Origin: Bacteroidota bacterium
GTDB lineage: Bacteria; Bacteroidota; Bacteroidia; Bacteroidales; Prolixibacteraceae
Reading direction: 5' to 3'
Length of the DNA: 64,000 bases
Assembly (NCBI GenBank): GCA_030684645.1
Contig: JAUXUF010000311.1
Location: 20,236 to 84,235 of the forward strand
Below, piece after piece: positions 45,799-51,665 of the stretch. Both the position numbers and the translations under genes were made by a program. Positions within the stretch are counted from its first letter, which is position 1, and each line of letters starts with the position of its first letter. A model generated the notes under the pieces. The model saw only the letters and a list, made by a program, of their open reading frames with translations. It had not been told where the DNA came from and searched no databases.

Positions 45799-46659
45799 AT
45801 GAAAAGAAAAAAATATAGTTCAGGAATTCCTTCATACTTCGATGCGATTCAAAAGATACTGGAAATTCAACGTGATATTTTAACTGGTGTTTTGCCTCAT
45901 TCAGGTGAACGAGGGAGTAATGATGAACAGAGATTAATTAGTTTTATTAAACAAATATTGCCACAAAGATTTGGAGTTGGTACAGGGTTTATAGTAAACT
46001 CAACTTCTAAAGGACTTACAAGCAAACAGAATGACATAATAATTGCAGATGAGTACTTTAATTCTCCACTGCATAGAGAATTATCAGCTCAAGTCTACCC
46101 AATAGAGACAGTGTATGCTACAATTGAAGTAAAGGGAACAATTTCTAAGTATAAGAAGCCAAATAAAAAAACTGATCTTGATCAATTACTAGAAAACATT
46201 TCTATTATTCGTAAACTCTCTGAAGTTAAAAAATATATTGAGTATCAACCAAAGCCAAAAGACAAGGAACATTCTAACCAAGTAGTTACAAAAAAAAGAG
46301 AATTTCCAAATAACTTACCGCCACGAAGTTATCTTTTTGCATACAATAGTGATGATTGGAAGTCAATAGATGATTTTATTGCTTCTCTTCAAGCAGCTAT
46401 TATAAATCATAAAAACACGCATATTCATGGTGCTATCGTATTAAATAGGAATTGGTTCATTAAACAAAAACCATATGATGATTCAGTAGAGCTATTTGGA
46501 TATAAGGATAATTCATTACTTAGATTTACTGTAAATTTACTTCATGGAATTCAAAGTATGCCAATGAGTATGGTTAATTTAGATAATTATTACACTCTTT
46601 TAGATAAAATGCCCCTTATAGACACTGAAGATTCAGGTTTCATCGGTAATATAGATTAA
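45799..46659 (+). CDS. DUF6602-like protein with PD-(D/E)XK-like motif
   Basis: ORF 45790 (TTG) or 45799 (ATG); HSGERGSNDEQRLISFIKQILPQRFGVGTGFIV...SKQNDIIIADEYFNSPL...VYATIEVKGTISK. Confidence 0.7.
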   Translation: MKRKKYSSGIPSYFDAIQKILEIQRDILTGVLPHSGERGSNDEQRLISFIKQILPQRFGVGTGFIVNSTSKGLTSKQNDIIIADEYFNSPLHRELSAQVYPIETVYATIEVKGTISKYKKPNKKTDLDQLLENISIIRKLSEVKKYIEYQPKPKDKEHSNQVVTKKREFPNNLPPRSYLFAYNSDDWKSIDDFIASLQAAIINHKNTHIHGAIVLNRNWFIKQKPYDDSVELFGYKDNSLLRFTVNLLHGIQSMPMSMVNLDNYYTLLDKMPLIDTEDSGFIGNID

Positions 46660-46710
46660 AATTAAGTAAAAGATTTAAACGATTATAGTGATATAATAAC
46701 AAATGCCCAG

Positions 46711-46840
46711 CACATAACAAACGCCATATTCCATAAGGGTTTCAGAAGGTTTGCAGCAGTTCGTCCCGCAAGTAGTTTTGCACGGGGGATACAGACGTAG
46801 CTCCGCAATCCCTTACAAAACATGGCGTCGACCGTTGCAA
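46711..46840. repeat. long imperfect inverted repeat, attC-like
   Basis: AACAAACGCCAT (from 46716) and ATGGCGT (46822-46828)...ACCGTTGCA (46831-46839); inner TAAGGG (46734-46739)/CCCTTA (46810-46815). Confidence 0.5.
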
Positions 46841-46929
46841 GAAAGTGTGGACAGCGGCAGTGTGGATATCAAACGAACAAAAACTATAGACAGAGATAAA
46901 ACAAAAACGAGCAAAAATTTGGTCAATTT

Positions 46930-49900: not shown

Positions 49901-50046
49901 GTATTCAAAGAGTTTTGCCTGCTCAACGAGGTCTTTTAAAGAATATGATAGCCGAAAAACAAGAAGCTATTCAAAAAATTAATGATAGTGAGATACAAAC
50001 CAAAGTACCCAAGTTAATATCATTGAGTCAAATTAAAGTTTATTAA
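46930..50046 (+). CDS. RapA/SNF2-type DEAH helicase (1038 aa) with SH3-like N-terminus and long C-terminal extension
   Basis: [99 protein letters not shown]. Confidence 0.93.
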   Translation: [1038 protein letters not shown]

Positions 50047-50048
50047 TC

Positions 50049-51665
50049 ATGAGTTATACCGTAGGTTTAGATTTTGGGACCCACCAAACGAAAGTTTGCA
50101 TTGAAGATGCTTCAAATCCAGCTCAAAAAATTTATGAGTTTTTTGAGTTTGACGATTTACAGGGTGTTAAATCAGTATTGTTTCCGTCTATTGTTCAAAT
50201 TAACAATGATGACTCAGTTAGTTATGGTGGTTATGTTGATGAAAGTAACTGTAAAACAATGTCGCTTTTTACCACAATGGAACCAATGTTAGTGTTGCCA
50301 GAAGAACCAAAGTTAGAACTTCCCATAAAACCCGAAAAATTGCATCCGCCAAAACCTAAAAAGCCAGATTTAAAAGGGCATTCTATAAAAGAGCAACTTC
50401 TTTTTCAAGATAAATTCACGAAAGATTATTCGGATTGGGAAAGTAAATGCCGTCAAATAGACAAAGAACATAACAAGAACATTGAAAATTGGGAATTAGA
50501 TTGTACTGCTATCCAAAACGATTACAATTACGATTTAGATGATTATAATTCGGAAAAACATAAAAAACAAAAAGAATTTGAAATTGCATTGGCTATTTGG
50601 GAAAAAGATAGTATGCCAAGAAAACACATATTCAGATATTTCAAATTGGCCACCTTTTCTGACCAAGATTGGCAATTTGGTATTGAACCTGAAATTATTT
50701 CAGTTTGGTACTTAACTTTTATTCTCTTTAAAATTCGGGAAAATTTCGGCAACGATTTTTATAATCAAATGGGTGTTCCTTCCAGCTTTGATACTCATGA
50801 TGCAGAGAAACAAAAAAGTATCGCTTACAAACTTTTAATTGAAGCAAATCGCTTGATATCAGAATATAAGAATTTGGATTATTTCCTTAAAGCAAAATAT
50901 ACCGATTTGTTGAAAAATACTAATTTCGATGATTATACTGAAAAAAACATTAATGAATTGGGTCTAAATGTTTTACCCGAAGCATTCGCTGGATTATCCT
51001 CGATTACTCAGCAGGGTAAATTAAGTAGGGGAATGCACCTTCTTGTAGACATAGGTGGGGGTACGACCGATATTGCTTTTTTTACAATTACAGAAAAAAA
51101 ACTACCCGACATTCATGCTGTTCTATCTTTTCCTCAGGGATTGAACTATATTTTCGAAAATTTCATTGAAATAAATAATCTGAGTTCAATTGCAGAAGTT
51201 CAACATTTATTCATGAAAACCCAAAAAGGATTTGATCAATCCGTCTCAGTTTATCAAAGTCAGTTGAATGATAAAGCCAAGAAAATGATTCAACGAATTG
51301 AATGCGAATTTAAAAACAGAGAACCTGTACATGGAAGGAATGTTAAAGAATTGATACATGCTTTATCTGACAAGCCTCTTGTATATTGTGGAGGTGGTTC
51401 AATGTATGATAAAATGAGGATTCAATTACACTATTTTACAGATGTAAGGTTGATAAACAAAGATTTATTGAGTATTCCATACGTAAAAAACAAGAATATA
51501 GATACTTCATTATTTACAATTTTGGCAACTTCTTATGGTTTGTCAATTCAGTTAGAAAATGAAATTCAAATGACTCCGATAGAGAAAGTTTTTGACCCTT
51601 TACCACCAAAAGTAACCGAAGATATAAATGATTCGCCGATTGATTATGGACTTGCGGACACATAA
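50049..51665 (+). CDS. Hsp70/actin-fold ATPase with charged insert
   Basis: Phosphate-1 YTVGLDFGTHQTKVCIE; phosphate-2 LLVDIGGGTTDIAFF; adenosine motif VYCGGGSMYDKM; 2 nt after the helicase stop. Confidence 0.88.
   Translation: MSYTVGLDFGTHQTKVCIEDASNPAQKIYEFFEFDDLQGVKSVLFPSIVQINNDDSVSYGGYVDESNCKTMSLFTTMEPMLVLPEEPKLELPIKPEKLHPPKPKKPDLKGHSIKEQLLFQDKFTKDYSDWESKCRQIDKEHNKNIENWELDCTAIQNDYNYDLDDYNSEKHKKQKEFEIALAIWEKDSMPRKHIFRYFKLATFSDQDWQFGIEPEIISVWYLTFILFKIRENFGNDFYNQMGVPSSFDTHDAEKQKSIAYKLLIEANRLISEYKNLDYFLKAKYTDLLKNTNFDDYTEKNINELGLNVLPEAFAGLSSITQQGKLSRGMHLLVDIGGGTTDIAFFTITEKKLPDIHAVLSFPQGLNYIFENFIEINNLSSIAEVQHLFMKTQKGFDQSVSVYQSQLNDKAKKMIQRIECEFKNREPVHGRNVKELIHALSDKPLVYCGGGSMYDKMRIQLHYFTDVRLINKDLLSIPYVKNKNIDTSLFTILATSYGLSIQLENEIQMTPIEKVFDPLPPKVTEDINDSPIDYGLADT

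Follow-up and report, generated by a model that had tools for sequence, protein, structure and literature searches.

Do the three consecutive genes between ettA and hisS in this genome act as one defence system, or is a smaller conserved unit lying beside unrelated neighbours? The window, by which we mean the whole 64,000-nucleotide stretch of the Prolixibacteraceae contig that was analysed, encodes at this site a DUF6602/NucC-family PD-(D/E)XK nuclease (45799..46659; ORF 45790-46659, ATG at 45799), a DrmD-like SNF2/SF2 DNA translocase (46930..50046) and an ASKHA/Hsp70-like ATPase (50049..51665), all on the + strand. A sequence-only reading had described three same-strand genes in an AT-rich insert, and that description stands: the ORFs are in place, the block has a GC content of 30.5-32.3% against 44.5% for ettA and 43.2% for hisS, and GC3 of its genes is 0.19-0.26 against 0.42. 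The same reading had proposed that all three genes, or at least the latter two, may be an anti-phage or anti-plasmid module.

The nuclease is matched by Pfam DUF6602 (E=1e-20) and, over nearly its full length, by the PADLOC NucC-type 'Effector' and NucC models (1.8e-22 and 1.2e-19); its best PDB match is Serratia NucC (7zgv, 4.2e-13). Because a fragment of the solved Serratia NucC itself matches DUF6602 (3.7e-33), DUF6602 is what Pfam calls the core of the NucC nuclease. The nuclease core noticed earlier was therefore correctly recognized but is not new. The window protein shares family and catalytic residues with the NucC effector of CBASS and CRISPR systems (the D, E and K are kept, and QND and IEVK align with NucC proteins), but it differs from the CBASS copies in its C-terminal half and is an orphan: the ORFs at 40000-60000 include neither a CD-NTase nor a type III CRISPR partner. 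Among the DUF6602 homologues of relatives, three of five lie in CBASS-like operons, whose genes (nucleotidyltransferase, E1/E2-like, JAB, NucC) were identified by eye from the sequences, and two stand alone. The NucC-bearing loci L070, L072 and L074 read as CBASS; in L074 the NucC part is apparently fused to a JAB-like protein.

The consecutive same-strand order, the intact D-E-K, the AT-richness of all three genes and the effector swapping seen elsewhere (a PtuAB fusion, below) would suit a single system whose effector, the NucC-like nuclease, is controlled by the helicase-Hsp70 pair, but DUF6602 is absent from every other pair locus examined, lies away from any pair in five relatives, and in a genome that has both (G015) is on a different contig, so that we regard a three-gene system as unlikely. 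The 270-bp gap between the nuclease and helicase genes (46659-46930) holds a dispersed palindrome-like element, and an operon shared by the DUF6602 gene and the pair is therefore not evident. The conserved unit is the two-gene pair and not a triad; the nuclease next to it is an independent gene and, by its profile matches, of an already known kind. Conservation across genomes, which the sequence-only reading had put forward as a check, thus upheld its helicase-ATPase pair and not its triad, and the reading had left the Bro-N gene of the same island uncounted.

That gene (51949..52785, + strand) encodes a Bro-N protein matching the PADLOC candidate PDC-S13 (1.7e-120). The ettA-hisS interval in which it lies is 7.7 kb long in the window versus about 0.6-1.1 kb in five congeners; the short loci (L104, L111, L115, L117 and L119) hold one or two small genes. 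The remaining congeners have other small inserts at this site, some with Bro-N genes resembling that of the window, and such PDC-S13-like genes occur there in congeners that have no pair (L101, L107, L114). The PDC-S13 gene is a separate candidate defence gene and looks like independent cargo of the hotspot. The site being variable, with differing inserts in congeners, it seems that a single ettA-hisS hotspot has accumulated three unrelated cargoes: the DUF6602 gene, the pair and PDC-S13. Positions 52817-53090 hold a copy, with a disrupted reading frame, of a gene of about 160 aa; many congeners have an intact version of it upstream of hisS. Two intergenic elements, one of about 120 bp and palindrome-like after the nuclease gene (46703..46846, no strand assigned) and one after the pair (51728-51800), both end in ACCGTTGCA. 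These ends are suggestive, and the elements may be candidates for sites resembling integron attC in outline; the palindrome-like one has a fold z-score of only -1.15 (structure not significant) and one other copy in the genome, 70% identical and on another contig.

The helicase matches Pfam SNF2-rel_dom (1.4e-19) and Helicase_C (1.6e-23), and all SF2 motifs checked are present, among them GLGKT at residue 127, DEAH at 231, TATP at 261, GSEGLD at 559 and QRIGRIDR at 585, in agreement with the full DEAH/SNF2 set claimed for it. The SH3/Tudor-like N-terminal domain was assigned by inspection. An AlphaFold model built on a 3-row alignment had a pLDDT of 42.0, too low for any reading of fold or interface. 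The PADLOC DrmD model matches the protein over almost its full length (1.9e-132), and NCBIfam DISARM_DrmD is the best family for every pair helicase tested, scoring 349.8 bits for the window helicase and 300-439 bits for eight others. The RapA equivalog gave the window helicase 179.5 bits, short of its cut-off of 576. By these profiles the nearest family is DISARM DrmD and the likeness to RapA is one of superfamily only; the earlier naming as RapA-like holds to that extent, RapA chains being the top PDB matches, and does not hold at family level.

Could the helicase then be a diverged DrmD, and the pair a DISARM variant or remnant? The best-family result favours this and the helicase family is the same, yet all nine helicases fall below the DISARM_DrmD cut-off of 610 bits, and the constant partner, an Hsp70-like ATPase, is no DISARM component. 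Nor were drmA, drmB or drmC recognized near the pair, either among the window ORFs around it or, by eye and among the first 25 PADLOC families listed, in 36 neighbours at nine other loci. Two neighbours that match DrmMI also match PglX/IIG models, and the one of them identified (at L014) scores far better as PglX. We consider a DISARM derivative very unlikely. RapA-like motifs and RapA structures as top matches might also point to a housekeeping helicase of transcription recycling with a chaperone partner, but the distribution largely refutes this: the module is rare and patchy (with the source counted, one genome in 388 for the class and two in 294 for the order), has low GC and lies in an insertion hotspot, in a genome with a separate SNF2 gene (contig C20) and two DnaK genes. 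A housekeeping role is thus extremely improbable.

The third gene starts 2 nt past the helicase stop. Its identification as an ASKHA ATPase was borne out both by motifs and by profile similarity above controls. GLDFGTHQTK, DIGGGTTD and GGG are invariant or nearly so across 14 homologues, and the phosphate-1, phosphate-2 and adenosine motifs are kept in all 14 with minor substitutions; hhalign gave 5.8e-10 for Hsp70-like proteins, 1.7e-7 for FtsA and 2.6e-5 for DnaK, with five controls at 0.15-0.8. No Pfam, NCBIfam 20.0 or PADLOC v2.0.0 model names the protein, no HSP70 Pfam match exceeds the cut-off, and a DnaK-type substrate-binding domain was not found; unfused members of the window clade are 411-542 aa long and end shortly past a GL[SC] motif. 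A helical/coiled-coil insert at about residues 75-195 is seen in the alignment to be lineage-specific. The ATPase thus appears to belong to the ASKHA/Hsp70 superfamily and apparently not to the Hsp70 chaperones proper. Its AlphaFold model (3-row alignment) was likewise too poor to read, with a pLDDT of 38.9. PDC-M61B is the sole PADLOC model matched by all nine Hsp70-like proteins scanned (best 5e-7), but was rejected as the family of the ATPase, since the match is short, covering phosphate-2 only, and the model also matches FtsA and generic Hsp70. A match of the Hsp70-like search in genome G470 was rejected as FtsA.

Counting the window, the helicase and ATPase genes are paired at 16 loci, spread over Bacteroidota, Cyanobacteria and Alphaproteobacteria. 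A search of 198 relatives placed the Hsp70-like gene in five genomes besides the source and the full-length helicase in those same five, the two being adjacent in all of them. The chance of hitting the same five genomes under random placement is about 4e-10, ignoring relatedness; the pairs of G075 and G088 are near-identical, so there were fewer than five independent events. Wider searches added four loci with the same gene order (L017, L022, L023, L025), further adjacent pairs at L067 (where the contig end cuts the Hsp70-like gene), L076, L078, L079 and L082, and one in reversed order at L077; among all these pairs, that of G054 is truncated, and in that of Leptolyngbya the ATPase lies upstream of the helicase. 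The wider pairing was revealed by using the helicase instead of the ATPase as query: on plasmids it found relatives from Cyanobacteria and Alphaproteobacteria that are about 30-33% identical, each helicase adjoined by an ASKHA ATPase. When Hsp70-like proteins of the window clade served as queries, plasmids and phages yielded no match. A pattern scan of genome contigs, with patterns that proved overly general, accounts for one locus. The survey is a sample, in which the module occurs in at most about 3% of the genomes searched and the loci are mostly from Bacteroidota.

In the helicase tree the window falls in a clade of 10 rows (99/100), every member of which has an Hsp70-like partner, as do all members of a second clade of six rows (90/98); hhalign shows homology between the ATPases found in one clade and those in the other (99.4%, E 1.8e-21). 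Haloarchaeal SNF2 matches have shorter helicase ORFs and no ASKHA motif in the next gene downstream, so pairing is no general property of SNF2 proteins. In G195 an isolated 125-aa N-terminal piece of the pair helicase (L068:7261-7635, 57% identity) occurs without the remainder or the ATPase, a remnant or recombined locus.

The neighbours of the pair include BREX, restriction, WYL, Hachiman and GmrSD-type genes. In L023 a brxABC-pglX run, with brxA, brxC and pglX among the recognised genes, lies directly downstream; in G075 (L014, L090) PglX, PglZ, BrxL and McrBC-like genes lie beside the pair; in L011 the type I methylase HsdM adjoins it; and in Aminobacter HamA is adjacent. GmrSD_N or GmrSD-type proteins, HNH nucleases and WYL regulators are also among the neighbours, and recognisable defence neighbours are few at L012 and in parts of the cyanobacterial plasmids. 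Some of these neighbours were identified by eye only, and a gene that lies near a defence island need not be a defence gene. The BREX genes of L023, the PglX/McrBC/PglZ/BrxL set of G075 and the HsdM of L011 might be read as larger systems to which the pair is an accessory; the adjoining systems vary by locus, however, the window has none, and the near-identical pair of G088 lacks the BREX-like neighbour of G075, so an accessory role seems to us quite improbable.

Most pairs encode no effector within the pair itself. Most informative is G135 (L015:6703-9339), where the Hsp70-like ATPase is fused in one frame to the PtuA of Septu (1.9e-79), and PtuB (9.9e-73) comes next. The window differs in having neither PtuA nor PtuB beside its pair (ORFs and PADLOC), and Septu alone has no helicase or Hsp70-like domain. 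The alignment of the fusion to PDLC00287, the PtuA model of PADLOC, starts at residue 420, which is still inside the Hsp70-like part; the model may therefore include such fusions.

At five more loci (L080, L081, L085, L086, L087) a related DrmD-like helicase precedes an Hsp90-like, Tiamat/TmtA-type ATPase instead of an Hsp70-like one. These Hsp90/sacsin-like GHKL partners are from Methanomethylovorans, two Rhizobium plasmids, one Ensifer plasmid and one fecal contig; the TmtA-like identity is by PADLOC for two proteins (2.1e-75 in Methanomethylovorans, 9.1e-55 for one from Rhizobium) and by position, length or motif for the others. The archaeal ATPase has HNH-like Cys pairs at its C-terminus. 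Partner type tracks clade in the helicase tree, where the Hsp90/TmtA-partnered helicases group apart, the deep branches being poorly resolved and L080 long-branched. A chaperone-type partner next to related helicases thus recurs, although the Hsp70-type partner of the window has a fold unrelated to that of TmtA. These loci possibly represent a helicase-Tiamat pair, of which we met no description in the open literature searched (subscription papers lying outside it).

None of the systems named in PADLOC v2.0.0, NCBIfam or Pfam fits the pair, in keeping with the sequence-only reading, which had assigned none with certainty; its suggestion of a helicase-Hsp70 defence module gains from the reciprocal adjacent conservation, the BREX, restriction-modification, Septu and Hachiman neighbourhoods and the PtuA fusion. 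Since it recurs side by side near known phage-defence genes in distant bacteria, the pair is probably an unnamed immune module: in our judgement a mobile, horizontally spread two-gene unit of DrmD-like translocase and Hsp70-like ATPase that likely protects against phages or plasmids. The open literature, again with subscription papers outside the search, yielded no helicase-Hsp70 defence pair and no paper on DUF6602. CoCoNuTs, a predicted restriction system, have an Hsp70-like NBD in CnuD and in Hsp70-fused McrB, alongside McrB/McrC homologues and with Walker A-like motifs reported as degenerate (PMC11090510), whereas the pair has an SNF2 helicase partner and intact ASKHA motifs. MORC/GHKL-SF2 helicase restriction operons combine an ATPase with an SNF2 helicase, together with nucleases and methylases (PMC2292703), by the same gene-pair logic, but their ATPase is GHKL and not ASKHA. 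Because both helicase-GHKL operons and the Hsp70-like domains of CoCoNuTs are already known, the pair is a variant of a known theme and not categorically new.

As a mechanism, we propose that the helicase would track along DNA as the DNA-side sensor and detect or strip foreign or abnormal nucleoprotein. Its ATP-switched Hsp70-like partner could clamp onto the helicase or a client, so that detection leads to an effector being activated or recruited. In the fused form of G135 the effector would be of PtuAB type; at other loci its gene may lie in the vicinity or it may act in trans, or else the invader may be blocked by the translocase itself. More tentatively, an as yet unnamed, cross-phylum class of defence could exist in which a DrmD-like SNF2 translocase surveys DNA and its partner, an Hsp70- or Hsp90-like ATPase, is the switch that links this surveillance to exchangeable effectors, PtuAB being one.

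Chaperone-type ATPases have so far been described singly in bacterial immunity, in Tiamat and as CnuD of CoCoNuTs. Should DNA-tracking helicases prove constantly paired with a switch of Hsp70 or Hsp90 type, this would point to a common logic leading from detection to killing, and the PtuA fusion links the Hsp70-like switch to a known nuclease effector. DUF6602 can be equated with the NucC core, and an ATPase family now annotated as 'hypothetical protein' gains a hint of its function.
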